A DNA stretch of 37,872 nucleotides from a virus: positions 1-37,872 of the IMG/VR virus record IMGVR_UViG_3300021471_000004, one strand, 5' to 3'. Below, in pieces: positions 18,458 to 37,590 of this stretch. The number at the start of each line of letters is the position of its first letter. Within the stretch, counting starts at the first letter, position 1. The translations under genes and the position numbers were made by a program. The notes beneath the pieces are model-generated. The model made no database searches and had not been told where the DNA came from. It worked only from the letters and a program-made list of their open reading frames with translations.

Positions 18458-19789
18458 TCATGTGATTATAAACACCTTATCGCCCTTTTTCTTGGGTTTC
18501 AGGAGATTGTTGATTATTTCCTCAGCCTGTTTTTCTTGCCCGGGAATTATGTTGTCCCTGGCTTTATCCAGAAACTCTTTGCTTATGTCAAAACGCCCTA
18601 TAATTTTGTTAACCGCCGCCAGATTATACAATAATTTAAATTCATTAGGTGATAAATTTAACGCTATAGTCCAAAAGATAATGGCTTCCTGATAGCTTCC
18701 GGCCGCCCACCGTTTTAAGGCTCTCGTGTGCCAGCCGTACCAAGCATGGGGGTCTTCCGATACCGAACATTCCACAACCCAAAAATCGTCTCTCCACTGT
18801 TTAAGGCACGAGAAGAACCTGCCGAAATAATATCCGATAACCAGGGCCGAAACATACACCGGAGCGAAGGAAAGAAGCGAAGCCGTAAATACCGTTATAC
18901 CGATAAGGGGGATATATAGATATCTTTCGGATATTTCCTGCTGTACCCTGAATAGATTACTAAAAGGAATTATAGTTATTAAGTACCACAACAGACTTTT
19001 CGTGGCTAAATGATAAGGGAGCTTCCACAATAGCAAAATCGCTGACACGACCAGAGCCAGCCCGGCCAGGAAGTAGCGGTCTATTTTATAAGCTTTATTT
19101 TTCTTGCTGCCAGCGCAGGACTGTAAAAAGTTATGGTAAAAAGCTACCTTATGGCACAGTATGGACGAACAGAAATACCAGCCGATAGTTTTAAGCATTA
19201 ATATAATTTTACCGGCATGAAACGTTTTATCTTCGTTGACCCTCTCGGAAGAAGCCTTAAACGATACCGCCTTAAAAAACTTCTTATACCAGATAAGGCA
19301 GTTTGCTGCAGCCGCGAGAATCCAGACGGGGTGAAAGAGCATTAGAGCGAAGGGGGCCAGATAACCCACGGTGTAGAATCCGCATATAAACACTAAATAT
19401 AACGAAGCCGCGCGGGGGAAAAGCGCCAGAGCGTAAACCATAAATAAAGCGGTCACGGAGTAGGCCCTTCCGGAAATCCAGACGCTTCCGTGCTGTCCCA
19501 TGGGATGGACGGCAAACAATAAAGCCGCTACGAATGAAACGTTATTTTTCCCGAAAGCCAGGAATATCCCCAGCACAACGCCCAGATGTATAAGCATAGT
19601 AAGCAGATGGTCAGCCCAGGGTTTGAGCCTCAGAGAGCCGGTCAGCCATAAGAAATACTTGTGTAATTTATTGCGGTATTTGGGAGGGTTTTTAAACACC
19701 GGAATATCATCGGAAACGTACCCGAACTTCAAAACCGGAAACTGGGAAATCAGAACCGTAAGTATTAAGATTCCAATCTGAACATCCAT
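18458..19789 (-). CDS. TMTC-like GT-C membrane glycosyltransferase with C-terminal TPR
   Basis: The 443-residue protein starts with a membrane helix followed by FGYVSDDIPVFKNPP, where Asp27-Asp28 match the acidic first-loop motif of GT-C enzymes. LLFAVHPMGQHGSVWISGRA (residues 89-107) is close to the hallmark LLFAvHP....vaWisGRa block of TMTC-type O-mannosyltransferases. Further hydrophobic helices follow, and residues from about 345 form TPR-like helices (HTRALKRWAAGSYQEAIIFW and following). Such enzymes transfer a sugar from a polyprenyl-phosphate carrier on the far side of the membrane. The DPM1/GtrB-like gene in the same operon could make that donor. It is the last glycan gene and overlaps the radical SAM gene. 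Confidence 0.8.
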   Translation of the reverse strand: MDVQIGILILTVLISQFPVLKFGYVSDDIPVFKNPPKYRNKLHKYFLWLTGSLRLKPWADHLLTMLIHLGVVLGIFLAFGKNNVSFVAALLFAVHPMGQHGSVWISGRAYSVTALFMVYALALFPRAASLYLVFICGFYTVGYLAPFALMLFHPVWILAAAANCLIWYKKFFKAVSFKASSERVNEDKTFHAGKIILMLKTIGWYFCSSILCHKVAFYHNFLQSCAGSKKNKAYKIDRYFLAGLALVVSAILLLWKLPYHLATKSLLWYLITIIPFSNLFRVQQEISERYLYIPLIGITVFTASLLSFAPVYVSALVIGYYFGRFFSCLKQWRDDFWVVECSVSEDPHAWYGWHTRALKRWAAGSYQEAIIFWTIALNLSPNEFKLLYNLAAVNKIIGRFDISKEFLDKARDNIIPGQEKQAEEIINNLLKPKKKGDKVFIIT

Positions 19790-20763
19790 TTAACACCTTC
19801 CTTTATTCCCCTCCAGATGTATTCTATATCCTCTCTGGTCTTTATATCCCTGAATTTATTATACCAGAAAATAGGGTTTAATGCCGCTGAATAATGCCGG
19901 TCGAGGTATTTTTTTAAATGCTCGCCCTCTGGATTGCCTTTAAGCAGAGGGTTATAATACGAACTCTGGGCGGTCTTAGCGTAGCCTTTTATAAGCATTT
20001 TCCTGACGAATCTTACTGTGTTCATGGTATCTTTGGGAGTTTCCCAGGGATAACCTACCATGTAGCTTATATGCGGCTCAAGCCCCGCCTCTGAGGCCTT
20101 CTTAAGAGTTGACTCGACTCTGTTGACATCGATATTGCCTTTATGTATTCTGTCCAGAGTGTCCTGATTTATGGATTCAAGTCCAAACAGCACCATTCTA
20201 AAACCGGCTTCTCTCATTTTGCGGTAATCGGCTTTTGCGTCAAGGCGCAGGTTACAGCCTAGCCTTATCGGCAATTTAAGAGCTATTATATCGTCACAAA
20301 AAGCGTCAAGCCATTCTCCGTCAGGGAAAGTAGCGCTGTCGTCGAATATTTCCCGGAAGCCCATTTCATGGCACTGGATTATCTCCTCAAGTATCGAATC
20401 CGATGGGCGCACGAACACAGAGTTTTTCAAAGACTCAACGCAGAATAAACACCTTCCCCACAGACACCCTGAAGCTGACATAATATATGTTCCGGGAAGA
20501 TATTTAAAATTTCCGTTGTTCTGGTATTCCCACCATTTCGTGAATATTCTGTCGGGAGGAGGCAGTTGGCGGAAGGGAATATCTTCCGGTTCGGTAATAA
20601 CTTTATCGTAATGGCCGCTTGTGTTGTCCGGGTTCCAGTAGACTTCGTGCCCCCGCTCCCGGTAATACTGAGCCTGCATTGCTAAAAGCACCGGATAGAT
20701 TTTCCTTCTTTTCTGGCGCTGTCTCTGCTGGCTGTAGCAATGGGGTATGTATAGTATCTTCAT
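19765..20763 (-). CDS. Radical SAM enzyme
   Basis: The 332-residue protein contains SASGCLWGRCLFCVE with Cys100, Cys105 and Cys108, a CX4CX2C variant of the [4Fe-4S] site rather than the standard CX3CX2C. Later SPASM-free radical SAM features follow: LRLDA at the beta-strand after the GxIxG-like region, VLFGLESINQDTLDRIHKG (the classic GlE motif), and HISYMVGYPWET. The N-terminal ~90 residues are short for a full B12-binding domain. The substrate is unknown; in a glycan operon it may modify a sugar or lipid. It overlaps its neighbours at both ends. Confidence 0.88.
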   Translation of the reverse strand: MKILYIPHCYSQQRQRQKRRKIYPVLLAMQAQYYRERGHEVYWNPDNTSGHYDKVITEPEDIPFRQLPPPDRIFTKWWEYQNNGNFKYLPGTYIMSASGCLWGRCLFCVESLKNSVFVRPSDSILEEIIQCHEMGFREIFDDSATFPDGEWLDAFCDDIIALKLPIRLGCNLRLDAKADYRKMREAGFRMVLFGLESINQDTLDRIHKGNIDVNRVESTLKKASEAGLEPHISYMVGYPWETPKDTMNTVRFVRKMLIKGYAKTAQSSYYNPLLKGNPEGEHLKKYLDRHYSAALNPIFWYNKFRDIKTREDIEYIWRGIKEGVKWMFRLES

Positions 20764-21755
20764 GACATAAACTCCTCGATTATATCGTCCAGGCTGTAGC
20801 GGTAGTCCCAGGACGGATAATGTTCCATGAATTTGCTGACGTCGCTGACGTACCAGATATGGTCGGCGCGGCGGGGCCTGTCAAGGTAGGTATACCTCAA
20901 CTCGAACCTCTCGATTGCCTCTAAAACCGATATATTATTATTCTTGCCTCCGCCCATATTGTACACTTCGCCTTTTCTGGGGTTGAGGAAGTAATAAAAG
21001 AAAGCCCGCGCCAAATCGTGGGCGTGGATAATATCTCTGACCTGCTTCCCCTTGTATCCGTAGATTGTGTATTTTCTCCTTTCCTTACGGCATTTGGCCA
21101 TATAAGCTAAAAACCCGTGCTGTTCAACCCCGGCGTGGGCCTTGCCTGTGATACATCCGCAACGGAATATTCCGGTATTAAGATTGAAGTATTTGCCGTA
21201 TTCCTGGGCCATCATATCACCGGCGAGTTTAGATACTCCAAATAAAGAATGGGCGGTGTGGTCGATTAGCATGTTCTCGTTAATTCCCGATAAGTTATAA
21301 GGTTCATATCTCTTGGGGAGTTCCCTTAGCGCTATTTTGTTGGGGTTGACTCCGTATACTTTGTTGGTGGAGACATAGATAAAAATCGCCTCCGGGCAGT
21401 ATTTTCTAAAATTATTGAGTAGTATCAGGGTTCCATTGGCGTTGATAGTAAAATCTTCTATGGGATCTACAACGGCCCAATCGTGGGAAGGCTGGGCGGC
21501 GGCATGTATCACCAGCACCGGTTTATAATGCCTAAATAGCTCCTCCATAATAGTCGCGTCTCTTATATCGGCGTCAGCGTGGGTATAATTGTCGTCTATT
21601 ATCTTATTTTTAAACACGTCGCCATCAACGCCGAAGAAGTGCTTCCTTCGGTTGTTATCTATTCCTATTACATGAAAGCCTTTGTTCAGAAAGAACCGGG
21701 AGGCTTCAAGCCCTACTAATCCGCACGAGCCAGTTATCAATACGTTTCTTTTCAT
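20760..21755 (-). CDS. NAD-dependent epimerase/dehydratase, CDP-paratose 2-epimerase-like
   Basis: The 331-residue extended SDR protein has the NAD-binding GSCGLVG (residues 9-15), the STNKVYG segment (129-135) and YKGKQVRDIIHAHDLA, all typical of the tyvelose/CDP-paratose 2-epimerase branch. The usual catalytic YxxxK is FGVSK here (Phe172, Lys176). This is seen in a subgroup with LFGxSK, so activity may use another residue, or the enzyme may catalyse a different step. Role: modification of a nucleotide sugar for the glycan made by this operon. It overlaps both neighbours by a few bases. Confidence 0.87.
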   Translation of the reverse strand: MKRNVLITGSCGLVGLEASRFFLNKGFHVIGIDNNRRKHFFGVDGDVFKNKIIDDNYTHADADIRDATIMEELFRHYKPVLVIHAAAQPSHDWAVVDPIEDFTINANGTLILLNNFRKYCPEAIFIYVSTNKVYGVNPNKIALRELPKRYEPYNLSGINENMLIDHTAHSLFGVSKLAGDMMAQEYGKYFNLNTGIFRCGCITGKAHAGVEQHGFLAYMAKCRKERRKYTIYGYKGKQVRDIIHAHDLARAFFYYFLNPRKGEVYNMGGGKNNNISVLEAIERFELRYTYLDRPRRADHIWYVSDVSKFMEHYPSWDYRYSLDDIIEEFMS

Positions 21756-22453
21756 AGCTTCCTCCTGAAAAATCCTTTGATAAAAGATGCAACATAATGA
21801 TACACAACCCCTATAGTACCCACTAAAGCCTTCTTAATCAAAAAGCCCCGGTGCTTTCCGTATGTTGAAACCTGCTTCCAGAATGGGCGGTACAGCGAGC
21901 GGCGGTTGTGATACACCAAAAGCCCAGGATGGTAATACACGGCACAACCTATTTCCCTGCAGAGTAAGCTGTCCTCTCCGGTAAGATAAGGCTTAAAATC
22001 AACCATGTAGCCTTTTTTGATTATCAGGTTAAACGTGGGAAATTCGTTTACTATCCTGGCCTTTTTGGGAGTAACCCGGTAGGAGTAAGGAAGGAGCTTC
22101 AATATAAAATCAGTTACCTTCTGGGAGTCAGAAGCCGACGGAGGAAGTACGCCGGGCCCGCAGACCGCTCCGTAAGTCCTTAGTAGATTTTTGGCCGTGA
22201 TTAACCAATCATCCGGAGGGTAGGCGTCCGAGTCAATAAAAGCCAAATAACTGCCTTTAGCCATTTTCATGGCGTGATTGCGCTTCTGGGCCGGTAACCC
22301 GGGGCAAACGTTATCGTCGATAGCCAATATTTCCCAGCTTCCCTTAAGCCTCCGGCAGTGCCATAGACAACGGACAATGTACTTGTCGGCTGTTTTGTAG
22401 GGTATTATTATTGAAAAATCCGGATTTTCAGAGTTTCTAAAAAAATGCGCCAT
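21752..22453 (-). CDS. GT2-family glycosyltransferase
   Basis: The 233-residue protein starts with a GT-A Rossmann-like strand (FSIIIPYKTADKYIVRCL), has QKRNHAMKMAKGSYLAFIDS with the DxD at Asp74-x-Asp76 (DSDAYP), and then TGEDSLLCREIG, matching the ED base motif. A C-terminal membrane-associated helix (GFLIKKALVGTIGVVYHYVA) ends the protein. It should transfer a sugar from a nucleotide donor to a lipid-linked acceptor at the inner membrane face. It overlaps the upstream DPM1-like gene by 46 bases. Confidence 0.9.
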   Translation of the reverse strand: MAHFFRNSENPDFSIIIPYKTADKYIVRCLWHCRRLKGSWEILAIDDNVCPGLPAQKRNHAMKMAKGSYLAFIDSDAYPPDDWLITAKNLLRTYGAVCGPGVLPPSASDSQKVTDFILKLLPYSYRVTPKKARIVNEFPTFNLIIKKGYMVDFKPYLTGEDSLLCREIGCAVYYHPGLLVYHNRRSLYRPFWKQVSTYGKHRGFLIKKALVGTIGVVYHYVASFIKGFFRRKL

Positions 22454-22971
22454 AACATTTTTAGCGACACTTTTCCTTTTATACTGGCCTCTATGGGTAT
22501 TTCTATTATTCTGGCTTTGTTTTTCTTAAGCTTGTTTAGTATTTCTATATCGAAAGCGTACCCGTCGGTTTTCCAACTCGGTAAAATATTCCTTCTGAAC
22601 ATCTTTAAACCCGTCTGGGTGTCGAAGGGAAGCGCAAACATCAAGCGGATATAGACGCGAGATAAGTAGGTTATAATCTTACGGTGCAGCGGAGAATTAA
22701 CTACGGTCTTACTTCCTATAACGGCGTCGCAATCCTCAAGAAACGGCAGAAATCTCTTTATCATCTTGGGGGATATATCGCCGTCGGCGTCCAGGAATAT
22801 TATTATATCCCCTTTGGCTTCCTTAAGAGCTTCCCTTAAGGCCCAGCCCTTGCCTTTTCCGTAACGGTCGGTGGCTATTATAATTTGTTCGCAGGGAAAG
22901 GCTTTCTCAATTTCCTTGACAAATTCTTCAATGTTGTTTTCTAAATGATTGGGTATTAGAACTGAGAACAT
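22408..22971 (-). CDS. DPM1/GtrB-like polyprenyl-phosphate glycosyltransferase (GT2, short)
   Basis: The 187-residue protein shows GKGKGWALREALKEAKGDII, then LDADGDISP (DxD at residues 61-63), VIGSK, and FDTQTGLKMFRR. These are the signatures of the dolichol/undecaprenyl-phosphate sugar synthases (DPM1, GtrB). The C-terminal membrane helices of GtrB are missing, and the N-terminus is short, so it is a minimal catalytic domain. It probably loads one sugar on a polyprenyl phosphate for the GT-C enzyme encoded downstream in the same operon. It overlaps both neighbours. Confidence 0.87.
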   Translation of the reverse strand: MFSVLIPNHLENNIEEFVKEIEKAFPCEQIIIATDRYGKGKGWALREALKEAKGDIIIFLDADGDISPKMIKRFLPFLEDCDAVIGSKTVVNSPLHRKIITYLSRVYIRLMFALPFDTQTGLKMFRRNILPSWKTDGYAFDIEILNKLKKNKARIIEIPIEASIKGKVSLKMLWRIFLETLKIRIFQ

Positions 22972-23725
22972 CCAGCAACCTCCTGTATTTTCTATATACC
23001 CCGTCCAAATCCCAGCCCGTGGCGTAGGCGTAGGATTGAACTACGGGGTTGGTATAAAATGGATATTCGTTATCAGTCAGTATAGCCAGCGAATTAACCC
23101 CTTCCGTTAAATATATTATTTTGTCTATTTTAATACGTTTTCGCTTGTAAGGCAACTCCACCCAGATATTAGGCTCAAATATCGGGAACATTTTCGCTCT
23201 AAGCTTGGTAAACACAAAATCAAGCTTTTGGCTGAAGGTAAGAGGATAGTTAATTTTTTTGGCGGTGTGCCAGCTTAAAGAAGTATTGGCCAAAAGAGGG
23301 GTGGCGGTCAAAGTCCTGTCGATTATTACCAGCTCATCGGAACAGAATTTAGCGCCCTGGGATACCTTCTCAAGCACAATGGTAGTCTTTCCTGAATTGG
23401 GAAAGCCAACCGCTAACACCCCCTCGCCGTTTTCCTCCCACGCCGCCCCGTGTATCAACAAGCAATCGTCCTCCACGCAGTTTATTTGTGTAAGCTGTTT
23501 CTGAAGCCAATCGATGTTATGATACTTTAAGAACGACCACATTTTATTCATCATAGGGGTAACGTAGATGTGCTTTAAGGATTTAACGGCGAATTTGCAG
23601 GGAAAGGGATAATCCAGTTGATAAAAAATAGTGTCGCTGTGCTTATCATACAGATAATCGCCTACCCGGCGTCCCACGCATTTTATGTTAGATACTACGG
23701 TCAACGGAACAACGTAACCCATCAT
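22928..23725 (-). CDS. HPr-kinase-like P-loop protein
   Basis: The 265-residue protein has the layout of the HPr kinase/phosphorylase C-terminal fold: LLIHGAAWEENGEGVLAVG (His92 strand), Walker A GFPNSGKTT (residues 107-115), and SDELVIID (129-136). A C-terminal half lacks the usual HprK signature motif as far as I can see. Relatives in bacterial polysaccharide loci are common but their substrates are mostly unknown. It may phosphorylate a sugar or a protein in the glycan pathway. It is embedded between glycosyltransferases with overlaps of 38-44 bases. Confidence 0.78.
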   Translation of the reverse strand: MMGYVVPLTVVSNIKCVGRRVGDYLYDKHSDTIFYQLDYPFPCKFAVKSLKHIYVTPMMNKMWSFLKYHNIDWLQKQLTQINCVEDDCLLIHGAAWEENGEGVLAVGFPNSGKTTIVLEKVSQGAKFCSDELVIIDRTLTATPLLANTSLSWHTAKKINYPLTFSQKLDFVFTKLRAKMFPIFEPNIWVELPYKRKRIKIDKIIYLTEGVNSLAILTDNEYPFYTNPVVQSYAYATGWDLDGVYRKYRRLLDVLSSNTQSFRKQH

Positions 23726-24503
23726 ATACTCCCTTACAAAAATGAAACGCCATATTAGGTTTACATCTGAGGTACATACTTATAACGTACAATGCCACCA
23801 TCACCGGGAAAAACATCAGGCTCAACCCGTGCTTCTTGTTGAATATTACTTTATTCCTGCCCATGAAATAGGCGTTTACATCGCTTCTGAAATCGGGCGT
23901 TCTGGAATAGGTATAAGATTTATGATATACCACGCTGCCGACTGATTTAACTATCCTGTACCCTAAGTTTTTCAGGCGGTAGCAGAGGTCGGCTTCGTCA
24001 AGCTCAATGGGAAAGTTGCAGTGGTCAAACCCCCGCACCTTCTTGAAAATACTCCTCTTAATCAAAAAAGCGTTAGCTACCTCGTCCACTTCATATACCC
24101 CTTTAGGGTTGGCATAGACCATTTCCAGGTAAGAGCGGTTAACGTAGTCGTCGGTAGTAAACCCCAATACTTTGTTTCTCTTCGAACCGCCGTCGCATAC
24201 TTTATCATGATTATAGGCGTAGCACCCCACGAACCCCACAACGCCGACCCTGCTGTATTTAGCTACCTCTATCGCTTCCTCAAGCGAACCTTTCTTTAAG
24301 GTGTTATCATCATCGATGAAAAGCAGATACTCGCTCTTGGCCTGAAAAGCCCCCTTATTCCTCTTTTGAGATAAGCTTAAATTCTCATCGTTTACGACGA
24401 TTACCTCTTTCACCGGAGGCAGAGAGCGGATTAACTGGGCGCATTCTTTCTTTCTTGACGGAAGGGTGGGAATTATTACGCTAACATTTAACATAATCTT
24501 CAA
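23688..24503 (-). CDS. GT2-family glycosyltransferase
   Basis: The 271-residue protein has the GT-A start VSVIIPTLPSRKKECAQLI, SQKRNKGAFQAKSEYLLFID with DDD at residues 64-66, a long acceptor region, and FPIELDEADLCYRLKNLGYR, the usual ED/ExDL..R block. A C-terminal hydrophobic helix (LMFFPVMVALYVISMYL) suggests membrane association. Resembles rhamnosyltransferase-type GT2 enzymes, but donor and acceptor cannot be told. Overlaps the HprK-like gene by 38 bases and the next GT2 gene by 23. Confidence 0.9.
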   Translation of the reverse strand: MKIMLNVSVIIPTLPSRKKECAQLIRSLPPVKEVIVVNDENLSLSQKRNKGAFQAKSEYLLFIDDDNTLKKGSLEEAIEVAKYSRVGVVGFVGCYAYNHDKVCDGGSKRNKVLGFTTDDYVNRSYLEMVYANPKGVYEVDEVANAFLIKRSIFKKVRGFDHCNFPIELDEADLCYRLKNLGYRIVKSVGSVVYHKSYTYSRTPDFRSDVNAYFMGRNKVIFNKKHGLSLMFFPVMVALYVISMYLRCKPNMAFHFCKGVYDGLRCSVDRSI

Positions 24504-25275
24504 CTCCTTTTTTTAAAAGATACCCCAACATTAGTAAAAACCAGATTATTTTTTTGTAATGAAAGTCGCTATGCCTTATATGAAACCTGAGCCAGTTAGC
24601 CAGCCTGCTCATGCCAAAACCTTTAAAGCGTTCTTTGTAGGTCGGCAGTTTTTCGAGCATATGCCAAAGATAGGCGGAGGTAACGTATTTTAATTGATAG
24701 CCTAAATTTTTAATTTTATACACGGCGTCAATATCGTACCATTCGCAAACCCCTTTATAGCTTTCGTCAAACCCTCCTATCCGCCGCAGTAAAAAAGTGC
24801 GCACCGCCCAATTAGTCCCTTCCAGGTAATCTATTTGATATTCTTTTTCAAAATCCAGTTTCTCAGCGAAATTAGAGCCGTAGGACACTGAACCGCATTT
24901 GTATATTTTAGCCGGAGCAAAAGGGTCATTATCAAAGAGCCAGGTTAGCCACGCTGGAGGACACGCAGCAACGCGGATACTGTCTCTGTAACCCCTTCGC
25001 TCCGGCACAACGAAAGTAGGGCCGGTAACTCCCCCTATTTCGGGCCTGGAGAAACCGGATAAAATATTCTCAAGCCATAGTCTTGGTATTCTAACATCTT
25101 CGTCCACCCTTATAAATATATCGCCTTTGGCTTTTTCAAGCGCCAAATTCATGGCCTTGACAATTCCTTTTTCCTTGGCGTGGATTATTTCGAAATTCCT
25201 GTAAGACTGCTTCTTCAAATCGCTGACTACGATTTGGGGGAGCCTTTTGGATAATATTACGATACTTGCTAACAT
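24481..25275 (-). CDS. GT2-family glycosyltransferase
   Basis: The 264-residue protein starts ASIVILSKRLPQIVVSDLKK, carries GIVKAMNLALEKAKGDIFIR with a D-E-D triad at residues 58-60, GGVTGPTF, and WAVRTFLLRRIGGFDESYKG followed by EWYDIDAVYKIKNLGY as the acceptor-side acidic motif. These fit GT2 glycosyltransferases of cell-surface glycans. A hydrophobic helix lies near the C-terminus (IIWFLLMLGYLLKKG). Its start overlaps the small membrane-protein gene upstream by seven bases. Confidence 0.9.
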   Translation of the reverse strand: MLASIVILSKRLPQIVVSDLKKQSYRNFEIIHAKEKGIVKAMNLALEKAKGDIFIRVDEDVRIPRLWLENILSGFSRPEIGGVTGPTFVVPERRGYRDSIRVAACPPAWLTWLFDNDPFAPAKIYKCGSVSYGSNFAEKLDFEKEYQIDYLEGTNWAVRTFLLRRIGGFDESYKGVCEWYDIDAVYKIKNLGYQLKYVTSAYLWHMLEKLPTYKERFKGFGMSRLANWLRFHIRHSDFHYKKIIWFLLMLGYLLKKGVEDYVKC

Positions 25276-25559
25276 ATAATATATATAAGCCAGTTTAGCG
25301 CGGTCAAAAAGAAAAAATTATCCCAAATAAAACGGGCAACGCTTAGATAGTAAAACGGACTTTCCCCATCGCTGAAAAAAGACTCCTCTGGACGGCCCAA
25401 TTTTGCCCTTACTGACGCCCATATTATAAATAATATTATAAATGTTATAATATGTGTCATGATATCGGATAGGGGAAATTCAATATTCAAGGAATTGAAT
25501 TTCCCCTGCTCCCTGAAACCAAGGGTAAAAGCTATCATTAAAGCATCGCCGAGTATCAT
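25269..25559 (-). CDS. Small membrane protein, paralogue 3, carrying a terminase-derived insertion
   Basis: I chose ATG 25559 (96 residues) because AAAAGGGGG lies at the right distance and the leader matches that of paralogue 2. The protein starts MILGDALMIAFTLG and later has IITFIILFIIWASVRAKLGR and GESPFYY, matching the MxLGexL, FxxIWAxxxA and GSPFY elements of paralogue 2. Between them residues 15-30 (FREQGKFNSLNIEFPL) have no counterpart: they are encoded by a 50-bp fold-back copy of the large-terminase gene. Two to three membrane helices are likely. Function unknown. Confidence 0.72.
   Translation of the reverse strand: MILGDALMIAFTLGFREQGKFNSLNIEFPLSDIMTHIITFIILFIIWASVRAKLGRPEESFFSDGESPFYYLSVARFIWDNFFFLTALNWLIYIIC
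25471..25520. repeat. Fold-back insertion copied from the large-terminase gene
   Basis: Bases 25471-25495 are identical to 36575-36599 of the terminase gene (25 of 25). Bases 25494-25520 are the exact reverse complement of 36562-36588 (27 of 27). The two matches abut, so the whole 50-bp block is explained by copying the terminase sequence and folding back. The block contains a perfect 14-bp inverted repeat with a 9-base loop (25471-25484 and 25494-25507). The minus-strand transcript therefore carries 25 bases antisense to terminase mRNA. Confidence 0.93.
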
Positions 25560-25572
25560 TGAACCCCCTTTT

Positions 25573-25947
25573 CTAACGTCCCCAGAACAAAATATATGCC
25601 CCAATACCTCCCCGGAAGAGGTCTTGATCATAGTCGTCTCTTAATACATTATCAAAAGCATAACATCCGGCTAAAAATAGCGAGAATATAGCATAGAAAC
25701 CCGCAGATACTCCCATTAGCGGAAGGTTAAGTGCAAAAGGTATAACGGGGATATGCAACATTATCGTTATCTTGCAAATTCCTTTATGTGTATCAAAGCT
25801 CCCTCTATAAAAAGGACTACCCTTACTATTACCGTCAGGGTCGGGGGAACCTATTAACTTAGTATTTAATGCTATAAACACCGCCCAGATTAGGAAAAGT
25901 GGTAGTAAACTCAGCATAGCGCAAAATAAAACCTCCCCGAGTGTCAT
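25573..25947 (-). CDS. Small membrane protein, paralogue 2
   Basis: The 124-residue protein starts MTLGEVLFCAMLSLLPLFLI behind GAAGGGGGTGC, a good ribosome site. It has an N-terminal membrane helix, NTKLIGSPDPDG (residues about 28-39) and GSPFYRG, then two further hydrophobic helices (MLHIPVIPFALNLPLMGVSA and GFYAIFSLFLAGCYAF). NTKLIGSPDPDG is identical in paralogue 1 and is encoded by a 35-bp perfect repeat. I do not recognise the family. Its place inside a glycan operon hints at a membrane partner for a glycosyltransferase, or a tiny envelope-modifying protein. Confidence 0.75.
   Translation of the reverse strand: MTLGEVLFCAMLSLLPLFLIWAVFIALNTKLIGSPDPDGNSKGSPFYRGSFDTHKGICKITIMLHIPVIPFALNLPLMGVSAGFYAIFSLFLAGCYAFDNVLRDDYDQDLFRGGIGAYILFWGR
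25832..25866. repeat. 35-bp direct repeat, copy 1
   Basis: This 35-base sequence recurs exactly at 26159-26193. Both copies encode the NTKLIGSPDPDG region of two neighbouring small membrane proteins that differ elsewhere. Confidence 0.93.
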
Positions 25948-25965
25948 TAAGCACCCCCTTCACTT

Positions 25966-26280
25966 TCAAGAGTACCGTGAGAGACGCAGGAACGTGACCA
26001 CTCCCATTATTCCGATTGATGGGAACACAATATAACCGCCAAAGCATCCCATTACAGCCAAAAGAAGCAAGTATATGATATGGCCTGTTGACGATATCAG
26101 CATATTCTCTACGCACATGTTGCTAAACGCTTCGCAAAAAGGGCTGTTTTTGTCCCAGCCGTCAGGGTCGGGGGAACCTATTAACTTAGTATTACATGTT
26201 GCATACAGCAGCCAAAACGAGGAAATTGTTATAAATTCCCGCATAAAGGAAAACCAAAGATCGCTAATATTGTATTCCAT
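25966..26280 (-). CDS. Small membrane protein, paralogue 1
   Basis: The 104-residue protein has an N-terminal hydrophobic helix (FITISSFWLLYATC), the shared NTKLIGSPDPDG motif, KNSPFCEAF in place of GSPFY, and a C-terminal pair of helices (IIYLLLLAVMGCFGGYIVF). The ribosome site ahead of ATG 26280 is weak; translation may be coupled to the 53-aa gene whose stop lies six bases upstream. An alternative ATG at codon 13 exists. Same unknown family as the next two genes. Confidence 0.7.
   Translation of the reverse strand: MEYNISDLWFSFMREFITISSFWLLYATCNTKLIGSPDPDGWDKNSPFCEAFSNMCVENMLISSTGHIIYLLLLAVMGCFGGYIVFPSIGIMGVVTFLRLSRYS
26159..26193. repeat. 35-bp direct repeat, copy 2
   Basis: Identical to 25832-25866, 327 bases away, in the same frame of the neighbouring paralogue (NTKLIGSPDPDG). 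Confidence 0.93.
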
Positions 26281-26285
26281 ATAAC

Positions 26286-26447
26286 TTATTGGCTTTTGGC
26301 TTTGTAATTATGGCGATTATGGCTATAATACTTAAAATTCCCCCGGCTTCTGGTCTCTCTCATGTAATCGATAATCAACACCCCCACAAGCCCAATGCTC
26401 CACAACAGCATAGCCCCGGCTAATACCGTAGTCCAATCCCAGTTCAT
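26286..26447 (-). CDS. Small single-TM protein (53 aa)
   Basis: ATG at 26447 sits behind AAGGAGGTAAAATC, a very strong ribosome site. The peptide is MNWDWTTVLAGAMLLWSIGL, VGVLIIDYM, and a basic, aromatic tail (FKYYSHNRHNYKAKSQ). It thus has one membrane helix with a charged C-terminus. Its ATGA overlaps the stop of the preceding 45-aa gene. Function unknown; it belongs to a run of six tiny genes inserted between the GT4 and the first GT2 gene. Confidence 0.65.
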   Translation of the reverse strand: MNWDWTTVLAGAMLLWSIGLVGVLIIDYMRETRSRGNFKYYSHNRHNYKAKSQ

Positions 26448-26581
26448 GATTTTACCTCCTTCTTTTTGCTGAATATTTTAGCTACTCTCTGATAAGCTCT
26501 TTTCAGAGACATATAGATTGTAACCGTGCCCACGAAAACGGTAATCATAGTCAGCAAAGCGATAATATCAAACACGCTCAT
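26444..26581 (-). CDS. Small single-TM protein (45 aa)
   Basis: ATG at 26581 follows GAAAGGAGGCCAAAGG, a strong ribosome site. The peptide starts MSVFDIIALLTMITVFVGTV, then TIYMSLKRAY and a Lys-rich end. One membrane helix is followed by a basic tail. The stop overlaps the next start (TCATGA). No known family recognised; the 45-aa and 53-aa products look like a matched membrane pair. Confidence 0.65.
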   Translation of the reverse strand: MSVFDIIALLTMITVFVGTVTIYMSLKRAYQRVAKIFSKKKEVKS

Positions 26582-26648
26582 CCTTTGGCCTCCTTTCCTC
26601 TATCCAATATTTTTTTCTTGCATTAGGTGTCATTTCAGATTCTAACAT
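26568..26648 (-). CDS. Tiny protein (26 aa) after the GT4 gene
   Basis: ATG at 26648 overlaps the end of the GT4 gene, behind GGAGGTAACGG. The peptide starts MLESEMTPNARKKYWIEERR and is strongly charged. The start is well placed for translation, but at 26 codons, and overlapping the next gene by 14 bases, it could also be only a coupling leader that carries ribosomes to the 45-aa gene. Confidence 0.4.
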   Translation of the reverse strand: MLESEMTPNARKKYWIEERRPKDERV

Positions 26649-27673
26649 TCCGTTACCTCCTTAAATATCTTCTTAGCTATCTCAATGGCGTTGTGTTTTT
26701 CCTTAACGTAAGCATGCCATTTTCCAGCCGTTTTGGTATCTTTGAGAGCTTTTTCAATCTCGCGGGCCAGGTCTTTGGCGTCCGTAAATCGATAGGGATA
26801 TTTAAGGTTTCTGAGAATTTTTCTGTCTGAGGCGACAACCAATTTCCTTAGCGCCAGGTACTTAAGAAAGGGAGAAGTATATAAGATATCATTGGCTGGA
26901 TTGTTACTCCTTACGGCTAAACCCACATCAGCCTTGGCTAACTCTTTATCTAGTGATTCTCTTTTAACCCAGCCGGTAAAGTGCACGTTGCGAACGCATT
27001 CTTTATTTTTTAAATATACCAGCCGTTCATAGTTCGGGCCGTCTCCGATAATATAGAAATCAACATTCGGTAAATATGCAGCGGCTTTTATCACAACCTC
27101 TAGCCCTTTATTTTCGGTAAGCGTGCCGTAGAAGATAACCCGTTTTATTTTATTGTCCGGCTTGGGAGGGATTGTTTCGGGGATCTCCACTGGGTCTAAA
27201 ATTACCTTCACTTTTGTATATGTTTCCCGGGATACTTCTTCCGCCATTTCTTTGCTGATAGCCAGTATTAAATCAATTTTGTTCCAGGCGGCTATTTCAA
27301 GAGGATGAAGAAGCCGGTAAAGCCATGGGGGGAGATTAGCCTTTAGATGGTAATCTCCCAGCCTAAGGATTACCTTAGACTCTGGACTCATGGCTTTTAC
27401 CAACCCGCAGTAGAAAGGGAAGGAGTCATCGCAGTAAATAACGTCGTATTTTCCCTCGCGCACTGAAAAAGGAGCGTATATAAGCCAGAATAAGGCGTTA
27501 AAAAATTTCGTAAAAGGGTTAAAGCGATTTACTAAGCCGCCGCTGATTATGGTATGGCGGATTTTCTGGCTATTGCGGAGCATTTCTTCAACATACGGAA
27601 AAGCTTGATTGGTCTCCGGGATAATTGTTTTGTCGTGGCGGTGCATCCAGGCTACTTTTTTTGTTTCTTTCAT
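26642..27673 (-). CDS. GT4-family glycosyltransferase
   Basis: The 343-residue protein has a GT-B layout. The N-terminal acceptor domain includes GKYDVIYCDDSFPFYCGLVK. The C-terminal donor domain has VIFYGTLTENKGLEVVIKAA (the G...KG region), DFYIIGDGPNYERL, VHFTGWVKRESLDKELAKAD and ILYTSPFLKYLALRKLVVAS; the last contains the P-FK pattern that replaces the E-x7-E of many GT4 enzymes. It should be a cytoplasmic, membrane-associated nucleotide-sugar transferase. It overlaps the methyltransferase by four bases. Confidence 0.9.
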   Translation of the reverse strand: MKETKKVAWMHRHDKTIIPETNQAFPYVEEMLRNSQKIRHTIISGGLVNRFNPFTKFFNALFWLIYAPFSVREGKYDVIYCDDSFPFYCGLVKAMSPESKVILRLGDYHLKANLPPWLYRLLHPLEIAAWNKIDLILAISKEMAEEVSRETYTKVKVILDPVEIPETIPPKPDNKIKRVIFYGTLTENKGLEVVIKAAAYLPNVDFYIIGDGPNYERLVYLKNKECVRNVHFTGWVKRESLDKELAKADVGLAVRSNNPANDILYTSPFLKYLALRKLVVASDRKILRNLKYPYRFTDAKDLAREIEKALKDTKTAGKWHAYVKEKHNAIEIAKKIFKEVTEC

Positions 27674-28344
27674 TTTATCCTCCTTAGCTTATACCATTTT
27701 TGCCAGGTGGGAGTTGACACCTCATCCACTATTTCAAAATTGTTGTGACAGTATCTGTTTATATCGGAGTGGTCGTAGAGGTATAAATGATGTTCCTCGC
27801 TGAATTTCCTGCCCTCGGCTTCTATGGATATATTCAAAATGGCCCGCTTTCTGTCTACTTCTTTGGGCGTGATTGTCCTTTTAACTCCGCCTATATGCCT
27901 TACGGTCTTTTTAAATCTTTCTTTTTCCATTTTATCGTAGTCGTACACGTCAAATATAAAATACCCTCCCGGCTTAACCGGTATCTGGTACCACCAGTTG
28001 TGAAACAGCATATAATTTACCACGTTAAAAAGGGCGTAAACAGCGTCGGCAGTACCGATAATCTCCATAAATCTGCGGTTCTCGGTAAGGCATGCTATAT
28101 CTTCAGCGTATTCTGGGATTATTAGATTCTTGTGGGGAGAGAGCGCTCTCATCGCCTTGGACGGTTCAAGCCCCATTATCTTAACGTGGGGCGGAAAATA
28201 TTTCCAATAGGAAGCAGTACCACAGCCTATATCGAGGATTTTCTTGGGGCACTCTCCCCAGAGGTAAACAAAATCAATCTCTCTCTGGTAGGGCTTTCTT
28301 TTATTTAGCTTGTCGTAATACCTGGCGTAATTTCTGGCAAACAT
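27670..28344 (-). CDS. SAM-dependent methyltransferase (class I)
   Basis: The 224-residue protein contains motif I ILDIGCGTASYWKYFPP (LDIGCGT at residues 37-43), a motif II-like GLEPSKAM with the acidic Glu that contacts the ribose, and the later AVYALFNVVNYMLFH and GGYFIFDVYDY strands of the Rossmann methyltransferase core. It resembles small-molecule and sugar methyltransferases of surface-glycan loci. Likely role: O- or N-methylation of a sugar in the cassette. Overlap with the aminotransferase is 44 bases. Confidence 0.88.
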   Translation of the reverse strand: MFARNYARYYDKLNKRKPYQREIDFVYLWGECPKKILDIGCGTASYWKYFPPHVKIMGLEPSKAMRALSPHKNLIIPEYAEDIACLTENRRFMEIIGTADAVYALFNVVNYMLFHNWWYQIPVKPGGYFIFDVYDYDKMEKERFKKTVRHIGGVKRTITPKEVDRKRAILNISIEAEGRKFSEEHHLYLYDHSDINRYCHNNFEIVDEVSTPTWQKWYKLRRIK

Positions 28345-29494
28345 ATTTTATATCCTCCTTAGTTAAATCCATGCCGCTGGGTAAATAAAAAGCGTGCTTC
28401 CACATATAGTTGGCATAAGGAAAGTCTGATTCTTTTAAACCCCCGATAATGTCTGGTTTATCGATGAATTGAACCATTATTTTATATGGCTCATATAGGC
28501 TCTCCAGCACAAACCTGCGGTGGGGATAACTCAATAACTGATTATAAGGGTTAACAAGGCATTTAATGCGGTGCAGGGGGTAGAAGTACCTCCGGCATTC
28601 TATGCCTTTTTTACCCAGGGCGTTTACTATTTTGCTTGCCGGGTATTTGGTAGTAATGAGATACATCCAGGGAACCGGTACGTCAAATTCTATGCCTGCT
28701 TCTCCCGGCAGGTACTTTTTATACAAATCACGATTGCGCTGTTTAATCTCGGTATATTTATCTATCTTTTCCAATTGGGCCAACGCCAGCGCCGCCTGTA
28801 AATTGGACATAGCGAGATTATTACCAAGATGAGTATGGGAGTAATGGTTCTTCTTGTTCCGGCACATCTCCCGGTAAGCTTTCACCCGCTCGAAAATATA
28901 GGGTTTATCGGTTACCACAATCCCGCCTTCTCCGGCGGTTATCATTTTGTTGTAGTAAAGGGAATAACAGGCCACGTCTTTTACCGGAAACGGTTGCCAG
29001 TATTGGGAGGCGTCGTCAATCATAACGGCTTTGCTGTGTTCCGTATTTTCCCATTTGCCGAATAGGTGGCTTCGGATTATCCACCGTAGATTACCGGTCT
29101 CCTTATCGTAATAGTCTATAACTTTCTTTTTCTTATCATATTGTTTATCGTATAGCTTAACCGTGATACCTAAACGAGAGGACGCCAGCAACGCGGATAT
29201 TATAGTGTCGGCTCTTATGCCCAGCCTTGCCCCGGTAACATAACGGCAGTCATTGATATTTTGGGCGAAATTTCTTGTTAGATTAGGCACGACAGCCCAG
29301 ATAGCCGCTTCAAGAGCCGCTGTTCCGCTGCAGACTGCCACGGCGTATTTAGTGCCGCTCCACCTGGCAAAGGCTTCCTCAAATTTTCTAACGAATTTAC
29401 CCCGGCGGGATACTTCGCCTTGTCTCACGCTTTCAGTGAGATATTTTATTTCGTTACCGTCGAATTTTCGGCCAAATACTGGTAATTTCTTCAT
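28301..29494 (-). CDS. DegT/DnrJ/EryC1-family sugar aminotransferase
   Basis: The 397-residue PLP enzyme has the family blocks: KFEEAFARWSGTKYAVAVCS with SGTAA (residues 56-60, phosphate binding), VMIDDASQYW (Asp160 for the PLP ring nitrogen), and YSLYYNKMITAGEGGIVVTD with the Schiff-base Lys183. The loop between about 65 and 155 is longer and less regular than in standard DegT proteins (for example LYDKQYDKKKKVIDYYDK). It should convert a keto-sugar nucleotide to an amino sugar. It pairs with the epimerase/dehydratase that precedes it in the operon. Confidence 0.88.
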   Translation of the reverse strand: MKKLPVFGRKFDGNEIKYLTESVRQGEVSRRGKFVRKFEEAFARWSGTKYAVAVCSGTAALEAAIWAVVPNLTRNFAQNINDCRYVTGARLGIRADTIISALLASSRLGITVKLYDKQYDKKKKVIDYYDKETGNLRWIIRSHLFGKWENTEHSKAVMIDDASQYWQPFPVKDVACYSLYYNKMITAGEGGIVVTDKPYIFERVKAYREMCRNKKNHYSHTHLGNNLAMSNLQAALALAQLEKIDKYTEIKQRNRDLYKKYLPGEAGIEFDVPVPWMYLITTKYPASKIVNALGKKGIECRRYFYPLHRIKCLVNPYNQLLSYPHRRFVLESLYEPYKIMVQFIDKPDIIGGLKESDFPYANYMWKHAFYLPSGMDLTKEDIKYVCQKLRQVLRQAK

Positions 29495-30431
29495 AACGTC
29501 TCTCTAAATCCCGAATAGTGCGCCTGAGCGCTTCTTCGAGATTTACTTGGGGGCGGTAGTCGATAACGGAATATATTTTACTGTTATCGCTCCATAAGCT
29601 TTCTATATCCCATGGCCTACGCCGCCATTGGTCGGTTTGTACAACAATATCTTTCCCCATAATCCTACCGATTAGCTTAGCTAAGTCGTATATTTTTATT
29701 ACCTCCTCGCTTCCCAAATTGTAAACCTCTCCAAATTCTCCCTTCTCCAGAAGCTCAACAGCGCATTTGGCCTGGTCTCCGGCATAGAGGAAATCTCTTT
29801 GAGTGTTGTTGCCCAGTCGTATAACGTTACTTTTTTTGGCTTGGTAAATTATTTCCGGGATAACATAAGGATGTAAAATATCTCTTTCGCCGACGCAGTT
29901 AAACTGGCGCAGAGAGATAGCTCTTATTTTAGCTTCTCTGTACCTGGCTTGAATTAACATATCTATCGCCAGTTTAGAACTGCCATAACTTGAATGAGCT
30001 TTCACGGGGGAAGTTTCTTTTATTTTTCCGCTGACATCTCCGTATATTTCGGCTGAGGATATTTGCAGGAAGCCTTTTATCCGGGGGAGAGACATCGCGG
30101 CGTTGATGCATTTCAGAGCGCCCATGGCGTTAATCTTAAAAATGTGTAAGGGGCGCTCATAGCTAAGAGGCACATACGGCTCAGCGGCGTAATTGAAAAC
30201 GTAGTCAATCTTATAGTCGCGAAAGATTCCAAAGGTAGTCATTTCGGAATGGGTTATATCGTGCCAAAGAAAGATAGCTTTAGGGTGAATGAAATCACGC
30301 CTGCCGGATATAAGATTATCCAGCACGATGACGTTGCAATTTCTGTTTTCAATGAGATAATCTACCAGGTGACTCCCTAAAAAGCCAGCTCCTCCTATTA
30401 CGGCCACGTTTACGTCGCTGATGTTACGCAT
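29454..30431 (-). CDS. NAD-dependent epimerase/dehydratase (extended SDR)
   Basis: The 325-residue protein has GGAGFLG (residues 13-19), the NYAAEPYVPLSYERP segment, SSAEIYG (125-131), the catalytic YGSSK (Tyr149, Lys153) and GNNTQRDFLYAGDQA. These are typical of UDP-glucose 4-epimerase, GDP-mannose or dTDP-glucose 4,6-dehydratase-like enzymes; the precise substrate cannot be told. All catalytic residues are present. AAAGGAGG lies just before the ATG. It is the first glycan gene after the YqaJ exonuclease, with only a 14-base gap. Confidence 0.9.
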   Translation of the reverse strand: MRNISDVNVAVIGGAGFLGSHLVDYLIENRNCNVIVLDNLISGRRDFIHPKAIFLWHDITHSEMTTFGIFRDYKIDYVFNYAAEPYVPLSYERPLHIFKINAMGALKCINAAMSLPRIKGFLQISSAEIYGDVSGKIKETSPVKAHSSYGSSKLAIDMLIQARYREAKIRAISLRQFNCVGERDILHPYVIPEIIYQAKKSNVIRLGNNTQRDFLYAGDQAKCAVELLEKGEFGEVYNLGSEEVIKIYDLAKLIGRIMGKDIVVQTDQWRRRPWDIESLWSDNSKIYSVIDYRPQVNLEEALRRTIRDLERRYEEITSIWPKIRR

Positions 30432-30445
30432 GAACGTCCTCCTTT

Positions 30446-31042
30446 TTAGATTTTCAGCTTCTTCTCTACCTCCTCCAACTCGGCTATGAATAGTTTTAGC
30501 TCTTTCTCTAAGGCGTTTATATAGTTTTTGTCGCGGTCAACTCTTAAGATTAACGGCTTCATGTTGGGTGAATAGCTCATAAAATCGCACCATTTCCTTT
30601 CGGTGACCAATAACTGCCCCTGAATTTGAGGGTAATACTGGATAGGTACTGACTCAGAGATAACATAACCAACGTGGTTATGAGGAAGGGGGCATTTGAT
30701 CTCTAGCAGGCCGTCAGAATCAACTAGCCCGTCAGGAGAACAGCCGTACCCTTCCTCATCAAGGCAGAAACCCGGAACGTCAACGGTATTCCCAGTTATC
30801 AGCTTATAGATTAATCTAGCTTCTTCTTCGAGATTAGTACCTCTTTCCATGGCTTCGCTGCTGTAGCTTTCCGATGGTATTCCTGACACTCTCTCAGCCG
30901 CCAGCTTGTAGAGGTATTTATCTCGTTGCCGGGAGCGTTTCCCTTCGGAGGTTAATATCTCGTGGAAGTGGGAGGCGGTAGGAATGCCCAGCCTGGCTTT
31001 AAACCATTCTTCGCTTCTTTGAGTTACTTCTATAATTTCCAT
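30446..31042 (-). CDS. YqaJ-type (lambda exonuclease-like) recombination exonuclease
   Basis: The 198-residue protein starts EVTQRSEEWFKARLGIPTAS, the standard opening of YqaJ nucleases. It has MERGTNLEEEARLIY (the conserved G...E.A), then GYGCSPDGLVDSDGLLEIKC with Asp104, Glu114 and Lys116 forming the PD-(D/E)xK site. These enzymes chew one strand of DNA ends to load an annealing protein. The ERF annealase gene lies directly upstream and overlaps it by 44 bases, a typical phage recombination pair. Confidence 0.94.
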   Translation of the reverse strand: MEIIEVTQRSEEWFKARLGIPTASHFHEILTSEGKRSRQRDKYLYKLAAERVSGIPSESYSSEAMERGTNLEEEARLIYKLITGNTVDVPGFCLDEEGYGCSPDGLVDSDGLLEIKCPLPHNHVGYVISESVPIQYYPQIQGQLLVTERKWCDFMSYSPNMKPLILRVDRDKNYINALEKELKLFIAELEEVEKKLKI

Positions 31043-31742
31043 TTTTATTGGCCCTCGCTTTTAAAGCGGTTAATATTTTATTATACATATCTTCGTTCAT
31101 CGCCTCGATGCTGTCAACATTAAAATGCTTTAAGACCTGAACTTCCTTGAGATTAGCGGCTATTATCCAATCACGTAAGGTATTAATCTGGTCTTCAGAC
31201 AACTTTTTTTCAGAGTAAGCCATACCGTCGTCGTCATCATCGGCAGAAAGCCCCAGGAGAGATAGTAAAGTATAGCGCTGCAGATAGGTAATTGTTGAGC
31301 CGATAGCCTGTATGGTGTTCTTTGAGCCTGAATTATCCATAGGAGCGCTTAGGGTGGTCTGTTCAGAGTGGCCCAGCTTGTGCGTGATTTTACAGGTAAC
31401 TACTATCTGCCCATTTTGAGACGTGTCCCAAGACGCGGATAATCCGTATTTGCTGAGAGCGGGATTGATTTTTTTGCAAAGATTGGGAAGCGTAGCGTGT
31501 TTGTACTTTACCCGCTGCCCTAATTTATTGGTATAATCAACTAATTTATCCTTAACAATATCCGGAGCGCTGGCTTTAAATTCCGCCATGGCTTTATGGT
31601 ACGCTTTTTTTGCCTCGTTGTTCTGCCAGCGTTCTTGAAGAATTAAAAGCTTTTCTAGTTTGTCTAAATCTGTGTCTGATTTGATGGCGGAGGCGATTAG
31701 CTCCGCCGGAGACTTGCTTTGCACCTTTTCTAATTCCGACAT
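30999..31742 (-). CDS. erf: ERF-family single-strand annealing recombinase
   Basis: The 247-residue protein carries the ERF domain (about residues 35-190): LEKLLILQERWQNNEAKKAY, FKASAPDIVKDKLVDYTNK, KYKHATLPNLCKKINPALSK, and the highly conserved QAIGSTITYLQRYTLLSLLG followed by a run of Asp residues. ERF proteins form rings that anneal complementary single strands, supporting circularisation and concatemer formation in phages without their own polymerase. The C-terminal tail is basic. ATG 31742 follows AAAGGAGGGCTAA, a strong ribosome site. Confidence 0.95.
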   Translation of the reverse strand: MSELEKVQSKSPAELIASAIKSDTDLDKLEKLLILQERWQNNEAKKAYHKAMAEFKASAPDIVKDKLVDYTNKLGQRVKYKHATLPNLCKKINPALSKYGLSASWDTSQNGQIVVTCKITHKLGHSEQTTLSAPMDNSGSKNTIQAIGSTITYLQRYTLLSLLGLSADDDDDGMAYSEKKLSEDQINTLRDWIIAANLKEVQVLKHFNVDSIEAMNEDMYNKILTALKARANKNGNYRSNSKKRRMV

Positions 31743-32065: not shown

Positions 32066-32094
32066 AGGTTAACATATCTTGACAATTTTGTCAA
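32066..32094 (-). promoter_or_regulatory. Sigma70-like promoter with inverted-repeat operator
   Basis: On the minus strand TTGACA (32089-32094) and TAACCT (32066-32071) are 17 bases apart. The -35 box lies inside CTTGACA-AAAT-TGTCAAG, a perfect 7-bp inverted repeat (32078-32095) that could be an operator. The surrounding sequence is nearly shared with the promoter at 35827-35855. The predicted 5' leader to ATG 32049 would be very short, which is a weak point. Confidence 0.5.
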
Positions 32095-32112
32095 GAGGTT
32101 TTTTTAAAAAAT

Positions 32113-34393: not shown

Positions 34394-34638
34394 TTTATCA
34401 CCTCTTTGTCACCTCTATGTTCTAACTCGTCTCGCATGTTCAACCGCAGGGCGTAAAATGGAGTTCTCCCTATGGCCTCAACTGTTTCCTCCAATATTTC
34501 GTCGGGTTCGTCTCCCCTAAAGTCGTGTAAAAGGATATTAGCGTAGATACTCATTCCGTTAGGGGTAATTTCTTCTATAATTTTTTGCAGCCAATCCTGT
34601 ATACGCCTAATTTTTTCTTCTGTACTTATGCGCGTCAT
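34390..34638 (-). CDS. Unknown small acidic-basic protein (82 aa)
   Basis: I do not recognise this protein. It is helical and mixed-charged (TRISTEEKIRRIQDWLQKII, then GDEPDEILEETVEAIGRTPF), with no membrane helix or metal motif. Its ATG overlaps the stop of the DUF6745-like gene (TAATGA), and it overlaps the winged-helix gene, so it is translated as part of the early operon. Confidence 0.65.
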   Translation of the reverse strand: MTRISTEEKIRRIQDWLQKIIEEITPNGMSIYANILLHDFRGDEPDEILEETVEAIGRTPFYALRLNMRDELEHRGDKEVIK

Positions 34639-35660: not shown

Positions 35661-35670
35661 TTTCTACCTC
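35623..35670. repeat. 48-bp direct repeat, copy 1
   Basis: These 48 bases are identical to 35768-35815. They hold the ribosome site and the first codons (MFDSLTPQQKKLL) of the DUF6745-like gene. Confidence 0.95.
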
Positions 35671-35805: not shown

Positions 35806-35815
35806 TTTCTACCTC
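35768..35815. repeat. 48-bp direct repeat, copy 2
   Basis: Identical to 35623-35670. The two copies flank the 97-bp segment that contains the 12-nt tetrapeptide repeats. Confidence 0.95.
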
Positions 35816-35990: not shown

Positions 35991-36314
35991 ATGGCAGGGA
36001 AGAAAGGGCGTTCAGGACGCAGGCCGTTAAGAGATGAGGAGAGGCGCCTTAAAATAATTGATAAGGCTTGGCAGATATTTCTCGAATACATCACCAATCC
36101 GGAAAATGATTTGAAAGCGCGCGCCGAATTGTGTTCCAAAGTTGTTGCAAAAGATATGCCCACACGTATCGAGGGGAAACTGGCCCATGTGGTAAAAATG
36201 GGAGAAATCACGGTTGATGATACTCCCGTAACATACGCGATAGGCGATGATGTTAAAACTGCCGAAAATTCTGGATGTGCCCCCGAAACTGCGCCCGGTA
36301 ATTCTGCGCCTTAA
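35991..36314 (+). CDS. Terminase small subunit
   Basis: The 107-residue protein starts MAGKKGRSGRRPLRDEERRL, a basic N-terminus typical of small terminase subunits (KGRSGRR), then helical DNA-binding segments (IIDKAWQIFLEYITNPENDL, KARAELCSKVVAKDMP). It lies immediately upstream of the large terminase and overlaps its start by 68 bases. It recognises the packaging site and regulates the motor. The first gene of the plus block, behind the promoter at 35902-35931. No strong ribosome site precedes ATG (TTTTAAA ATG). Confidence 0.85.
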   Translation: MAGKKGRSGRRPLRDEERRLKIIDKAWQIFLEYITNPENDLKARAELCSKVVAKDMPTRIEGKLAHVVKMGEITVDDTPVTYAIGDDVKTAENSGCAPETAPGNSAP

Positions 36315-37590
36315 TGATTTTCGTTATTTTCTCTTAGAAGGCGGCAGAGGGGGAGGAAAAAGCCAAACAATAGGCAGGTTCTTGCTCTATTTGGGCGACA
36401 GGTATAAACTCCGTATAGTCTGCGGGCGTGAAATCCAGAATAGTATCTCTGAGTCTGTATATTCTCTCCTATCCGACCTCATACAGCTTTACGGCTTAAA
36501 TTACGAGATTTTCAGTACCAAAATAACCCACCGCGAGACCGGGACGACTATACATTTCCGGGGTTTCAGGGAGCAGGGGAAATTCAATATTCAAGGAATG
36601 GAAGGTGTTGACATCCTTTGGATAGACGAATCTCAGGCAATAACGAAAGAAACCCTCGATATTCTCATACCCACTATTCGAAAAGACCACGCTAAGATAT
36701 TCTTCTCGATGAACCGCTACCTCAGAGATGACCCAGTGTACGTGAAATTTTGCGGGAGAAACGACTGCCTTCACATTTCCATTAATTATTTTGAAAATCC
36801 GCACTGTACCCAGGCGCTGAAAAAAGAAGCCGAGGAGTGCAAAAAAACAAGCGAAAAAGACTATAATCATATATGGCTTGGCTATCCCCTCGACCAGCCC
36901 GATGATGCCCTTTTTGCGGTTTTAGAGCTTGAAGGCAGTAAACATATCATATACCCCTTACGCCAGGGCTATGGCAGGAAAATAGCGGGGTTTGATATTG
37001 CCCGATACGGCGGCGATAAATGCGCCTGCGTTGTTCTCCGCCAGCAGGGAGCGTTGCATTGGGAAACGACATACGTTGAACAATGGGAAAAGAAAGACCT
37101 TAATTTTACGACAGGTAAAATCCTCTACATCTCAGCCGAGCAGGAGACGGAGCTTAACATTATCGATGAGGACGGTATAGGAGCCGGGCCGCTCGACAAT
37201 CTCAATAAAGGCAGAGGGCTTGAGCATTTTCGCGGATTTCGTAACCGGCAATACAGTTACCAAAACAACAGTTATTATGTCAATCCCCGCACAATGTACG
37301 CCTACAAAGTCAAGGATATGATTACGCAGGGGCACTTGCGGATAACGGACGACGCCCTCATCAGCGAATTATTAACTTTGCGCTATACTTTCGATTCAAA
37401 TCAGCGAAAGATATTGATTTCAAAGGAAAAAATGCGCAGGAAAGGTATTTCTTCTCCCAACCTGGCGGATGCTCTGATTATGGCGGTATCACTGATTGAC
37501 GCTCCCGCGTCTAAGCAGGAGGAAGAATTCGCGGGATTTCCGAAGCAATATATCGAAGAGGATATTCTCAAAGCGGCAGGTATTAGGTGA
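36247..37590 (+). CDS. terL: Terminase large subunit (ATPase-nuclease)
   Basis: The 447-residue protein has the Walker A motif GGRGGGKS (residues 32-39), the adenine-side REIQNSISES, the Walker B VDILWIDESQ (Asp127-Glu128), and the RNase H-like nuclease with Asp250 (AGFDIARYGGD), Asp307/Asp309 (NIIDEDGIGAGPLD) and Asp408 (PNLADALI). This layout fits the PBSX-type Terminase_3 family. It pumps DNA into the prohead and cuts it. The segment at 36562-36599 (coding GFREQGKFNIQG) also appears as a fold-back copy 11 kb away at 25471-25520. The start overlaps the small subunit. Confidence 0.95.
   Translation: MMLKLPKILDVPPKLRPVILRLNDFRYFLLEGGRGGGKSQTIGRFLLYLGDRYKLRIVCGREIQNSISESVYSLLSDLIQLYGLNYEIFSTKITHRETGTTIHFRGFREQGKFNIQGMEGVDILWIDESQAITKETLDILIPTIRKDHAKIFFSMNRYLRDDPVYVKFCGRNDCLHISINYFENPHCTQALKKEAEECKKTSEKDYNHIWLGYPLDQPDDALFAVLELEGSKHIIYPLRQGYGRKIAGFDIARYGGDKCACVVLRQQGALHWETTYVEQWEKKDLNFTTGKILYISAEQETELNIIDEDGIGAGPLDNLNKGRGLEHFRGFRNRQYSYQNNSYYVNPRTMYAYKVKDMITQGHLRITDDALISELLTLRYTFDSNQRKILISKEKMRRKGISSPNLADALIMAVSLIDAPASKQEEEFAGFPKQYIEEDILKAAGIR

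Follow-up and report, generated by a model that had tools for sequence, protein, structure and literature searches.

The small membrane-protein gene smp1 of the virus record IMGVR_UViG_3300021471_000004 contains a 50-bp patch of sequence identical to parts of the large-terminase gene of the same genome, which we judge (probability about 0.8) to be the recent scar of template-switch or fold-back synthesis, a templated insertion of the distant inverted type. The window analyzed is the entire record, one strand of 37,872 bp (positions 1 to 37,872), and the features discussed are collected in Table 1. Read on the smp1 strand, the patch starts with terminase sense sequence (GGTTTCAGGGAGCAGGGGAAATTCAAT) and then runs back along the opposite strand (TCCTTGAATATTGAATTTCCCCT). 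Both matches reported by the first-pass annotation were recovered in full: 25471-25495 equals 36575-36599 (25/25), and 25494-25520 is the reverse complement of 36562-36588 (27/27). They have two bases in common (25494-25495), and their union is exactly 25471-25520 in the patch and 36562-36599 in the donor, bearing out the claim that all 50 bp trace to a single terminase segment. This segment spans 38 bp, or about codons 106-118, and the two ranges within it overlap by 14 bp, with their ends 11 nt apart. The same patch/donor pair appeared among the few significant distant matches in a low-stringency self-comparison of the record, and the 27-mer of the patch had no other occurrence in IMG/VR.

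As a chance test, 60 third-order Markov sequences as long as the record were scored for their longest single matches. The longest direct repeat ranged from 13 to 19 nt, and the longest inverted match from 14 to 20 nt plus one of 26 nt, in a simulation that also counted self-palindromes, such that the 26-nt case may be one perfect palindrome. Two matches to one donor represent a stronger improbability than the single longest matches that the simulations scored. The 14-bp hairpin described previously is likewise present, with a 9-nt loop and a predicted stability of -18.7 kcal/mol. Other identities for the insert were rejected. The hairpin lacks the T run of an intrinsic terminator and went unreported by the scan for such elements; the promoter scan reported none within the insert; and no known RNA family or tRNA was found in the window. 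A mobile palindromic element was discarded as well, given that the sequence is terminase itself and the repeat is not present elsewhere.

Table 1 Features of the smp1 patch, its terminase donor and their surroundings
Feature	Position	Strand	Evidence or remark
Family-2 glycosyltransferase gene, start overlaps smp1 end	24481..25275	-	Pfam Glycos_transf_2 2.5e-9
smp1, small membrane-protein gene with the patch, 96 aa	25269..25559	-	no Pfam or PHROG match
Fold-back patch, 50 bp: 27 nt sense terminase, then 25 nt reverse complement, 2 nt shared	25471..25520	-	exact matches
Hairpin arm 1, 14 bp perfect	25471..25484	.	RNA hairpin -18.7 kcal/mol
Hairpin loop, 9 nt	25485-25493		
Hairpin arm 2	25494..25507	.	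inverted-repeat match
smp2, paralogue without the patch, 124 aa	25573..25947	-	blastp vs smp1 39% over 38 aa, E 0.005; similar start region
smp3, paralogue, 104 aa	25966..26280	-	29% with smp2, E about 2e-10
YqaJ-type recombination exonuclease, candidate contributor	30446..31042	-	Pfam YqaJ 1.1e-22; phrog_149 6.3e-41
ERF-type single-strand annealing protein, candidate contributor	30999..31742	-	Pfam ERF 2.5e-19; phrog_155 6.6e-42
Large terminase subunit gene	36247..37590	+	Pfam Terminase_3 2e-21; phrog_3717 1e-38
Donor segment inside the large-terminase gene (GFREQGKFNIQGM)	36562..36599	+	motif in 10/11 relatives inspected

The recipient gene most likely starts at ATG 25559, which is preceded by AAGGGGG, and its stop overlaps the ATG of the downstream glycosyltransferase gene (ATGTTAG). 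With this start, the insert supplies residues 14-30 (GFREQGKFNSLNIEFPL) instead of the residues 15-30 assigned earlier. The accompanying statement that smp2 lacks this stretch holds, but the size does not: the missing part amounts to about 23 residues, nearer 69 bp, and exceeds the patch, next to which about 18 more bases (encoding SDIMTH) are absent from smp2 and have no matched source. Of the three possible frames of the patch, smp1 uses the single open one, in agreement with the earlier observation that the insert keeps smp1 open; for patch residues 1-9 the reading frame is the same as in terminase. Because 50 is not divisible by three, some flanking sequence must have been removed or added as well.

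None of the three paralogues, smp1, smp2 or smp3, matched Pfam or PHROGs. Two more short membrane-like ORFs (MSVFDIIALL... and MNWDWTTVLAG...) lie at 26281-26641 and precede smp3, and together these make up a five-gene small membrane-protein cassette flanked by two glycosyltransferase genes. The cassette sits in a podovirus-like genome with a long minus-strand sugar-nucleotide/glycosyltransferase operon (18458-30431) that encodes epimerases, an aminotransferase, a radical SAM protein and several glycosyltransferases. The paralogues smp2 and smp3 have in common an exact 35-bp tract (NTKLIGSPDPDG; 25832-25866 and 26159-26193) with much less similar flanks, which suggests either a recent short conversion or strong constraint.

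The direction of copying can be read from relatives of the record. A megablast against 50,697 phage records returned no near relative, and a search by exact seeds in the genome collection yielded no terminase relatives. The relatives available from IMG/VR have terminases 42-65% identical to that of the record, and 10 of the 11 inspected carry the donor motif GFREQGxFNIQGME or a close version of it. The smp cassette is absent between the corresponding glycosyltransferase genes in five of the relatives (L010, L016, L017, L018 and L019), in which these genes overlap or directly abut; because L017 and L018 are near-identical there, the five count as four lineages. The cassette is therefore accessory, and the conservation of the motif combined with the absence of the cassette identifies terminase as the source and smp1 as the recipient. 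No relatives of smp1, smp2 or the smp alignment were detected in IMG/VR, none of smp3 or smp1 in the phage collection, and none of smp2 or the smp alignment within the records of the terminase relatives, in searches that either depended on exact peptide seeds or lacked a positive control and may thus miss distant homologues, in collections from which near-identical records may be absent. Nor was an smp1 orthologue without the insert found in IMG/VR or in the relatives' records.

The age of the event can be gauged from silent sites. In the motif-bearing relatives, only 3-7 of the 12 third codon positions of the donor segment agree with the record, indicating that this segment drifts freely at silent sites, whereas the two copies within the record show 0 mismatches over 50 nt. 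We conclude that the copying was recent; the alternative, that selection holds the nucleotides, is less likely. Nine motif-bearing relatives had no second copy of at least 13 nt of the terminase segment in the sequence searched, several of these records being fragments, and the tenth had one second match of 13-14 nt, the size expected by chance.

How might such a patch arise? Starting at terminase, either a DNA end or a nascent strand would have been extended over 27 nt, after which its 3' end (...TTCAAT) could have re-annealed onto the opposite strand at a near-match (...TTCCAT) about 10-11 nt further. Following this strand switch, 25 nt would have been copied back, and the resulting short fold-back strand may have entered smp1 at a break or gap, with little or no homology at its ends. 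Alternatively, the two segments may have been copied in the opposite order, overlapping by 2 nt where they fold. The microhomology at the switch point is weak, 2 nt if exact (AT), or 5/6 with one mismatch (TTCAAT vs TTCCAT). The work could plausibly have been done by the exonuclease and ERF annealing protein that the phage encodes, or by the host polymerase; a NinB/Orf mediator is encoded as well. Phage Erf with its exonuclease, like other Erf-type recombinases, recombines diverged sequences (PMC3945230), and fold-back insertion was not found in that paper. The reading frame of smp1 remained uninterrupted as far as the overlap with the glycosyltransferase start, and the site lies near the N-terminus of an accessory protein; these two circumstances would account for the survival of the insertion. 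A regulatory function is not needed for this explanation.

Given that the insert is seen in one record, and that fold-back chimeras are common in amplified DNA, we considered whether the 50 bp might be a library or assembly artifact missing from the real genome. This appears unlikely. The matches are just 25 and 27 nt long and the two sites have no further sequence in common, while the exact 127-bp end repeat at the termini of the record suggests a final assembly k of 127 (the end repeat of another record, G010, is also 127 bp), and with such a k, repeats of 25-27 nt should not join assembly paths. A chimera would also need to have formed three junctions, come back to its starting place and left the reading frame intact, and it would have to outweigh the true sequence in the consensus. 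A more serious, if still tentative, alternative is that an smp-like start (MILGDALMIAFTL) was joined by deletion to the body of another smp gene (IEFPLSDI..., compare MEYNISDL in smp3), with the terminase fold-back as deletion filler. This gene fusion is a variant of the templated insertion with a different ancestral state. The smp1 start region does resemble that of smp2 (score 32, reached by 0/2000 shuffles) and MAFFT aligns IEFPLSDI with MEYNISDL, but at the DNA level the smp1 body is no more similar to smp3 than expected by chance, and a simple collinear insertion relative to smp2 fits too.

The first-pass annotation had offered two readings of the patch, a template-switch scar and a trans-acting antisense link by which glycan-operon mRNA would pair with terminase mRNA and tune packaging. 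The former is supported by the anatomy of the patch and by a published precedent of equal structure (PMC11724301); the latter we regard as highly improbable. The 25 nt of perfect complementarity to terminase mRNA are real, and the 25-bp duplex in isolation is predicted at -38.1 kcal/mol. However, 14 of the 25 antisense nucleotides pair with the sense copy that smp1 mRNA also carries, so that the antisense arm is held in a -18.7 kcal/mol hairpin of its own, and opening the two pairing sites is predicted to cost 16.1 and 12.1 kcal/mol. The predicted net pairing gain is -12.9 kcal/mol, a value within the background for the two operons: cofolding of 300 randomly drawn pairs of windows from them gave a median of -9.0, a 5% point of -16.1 and a best value of -22.2 kcal/mol. 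Moreover, pairing would take place about 330 nt into the terminase ORF, far from its start, and the complementarity is explained by origin alone. Neither the relatives' records nor the phage collection yielded a homologue of the cassette in which conservation of the pairing might be seen. The hairpin loop contains a YUNR motif (UUGA), which could point to antisense kissing-loop contacts, but such a motif is to be expected by chance in 9 nt.

Other parts of the genome contain sequences of a similar kind. Positions 183-218 are a 36-bp direct copy (32/36) of the portal-gene segment 1633-1668, read in another frame (PGSQPLGRESGK vs QAVSRWGVEAVS); the copy lies in a post-terminase ORF, in a part that cannot be aligned with relatives and adjoins a tail that does align, and it is likely an older templated insertion. 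This hints that the phage acquired such patches more than once, and the tract common to smp2 and smp3 may be a third case, though these genes are paralogues. No inverted distant patch was detected at E 0.001 in 397 kb from the relatives and two named phages, some of these sequences being fragments. Two further repeats were noted: similar sequences at 32070-32111 and 35831-35872 hold TTGACAAAATTGTCAA-like palindromes on the minus strand, ahead of early genes, and are a possible promoter-operator pair, and a 56-bp duplication (96%; 35623-35678 and 35768-35823) comprises the ribosome-binding site and start of ORF 34638-35660.

It is a doubtful generalization that phages with an exonuclease and an ERF-type annealing protein repeatedly write short patches of their own conserved genes, direct or fold-back, into fast-evolving genes. 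If true, the process would make new coding sequence and new RNA hairpins, and the 50-bp terminase and 36-bp portal patches would be two such events of different ages in one genome. Read as a templated insertion, the smp1 patch would be a clean and recent example, in a phage protein gene, of the complex type detailed at yeast breaks. It would mean that a coding segment and a perfect hairpin can be added together by one mutation, and that complementary antisense stretches of one genome can result from mutation alone, with no regulatory role.

The closest known counterparts are the distant inverted insertions of yeast rad27 and RPA-pathway mutants (PMC11724301), which, like the patch, combine two overlapping inverted fragments of one distant locus, measure tens of bp and have a fold gap of a few to 20 nt. 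In rad27 and rtt105 mutants, most complex insertions consist of two inverted fragments of one locus (15/23 and 14/18), as is the case for the patch and its terminase donor. The rad27 insertions overlap partially, with a median of 50 bp and 2-20 bp between junctions, and the patch has a partial overlap of 14 bp, a total of 50 bp and a distance of 11 nt; in rad27 the two fragments have 2-11 bp of microhomology with each other, and the outer junctions 0-4 bp. Yu et al. tested fold-back within a single ssDNA directly and reproduced it (PMC11724301). The yeast insertions arise during break repair with end joining, whereas the patch belongs to a phage gene whose reading frame was kept. The cases found in the literature searched were from yeast, with no phage precedent for such anatomy, and by analogy we infer that the yeast mechanism may carry over to the phage.

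Hairpin-creating template-switch mutations (PMC8794818) similarly involve copying of the opposite strand and produce a perfect stem in one event, with a short stretch of replication on the complementary or nascent strand yielding the reverse-complement copy; in the patch, by contrast, the donor is 11 kb away and sense and inverted copies both moved. Of two further systems, quasipalindrome-associated mutations of E. coli (PMC7202029) also depend on a polymerase strand switch at inverted homology, but act on an existing imperfect palindrome whereas the patch imported a new one, and protein innovation by template switching in yeast (PMC8604942) likewise altered coding sequence that was then kept but, unlike the patch, acts between existing inverted-repeat arms. 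Seen against these systems, the patch is most likely ordinary in kind and unusual in its setting.
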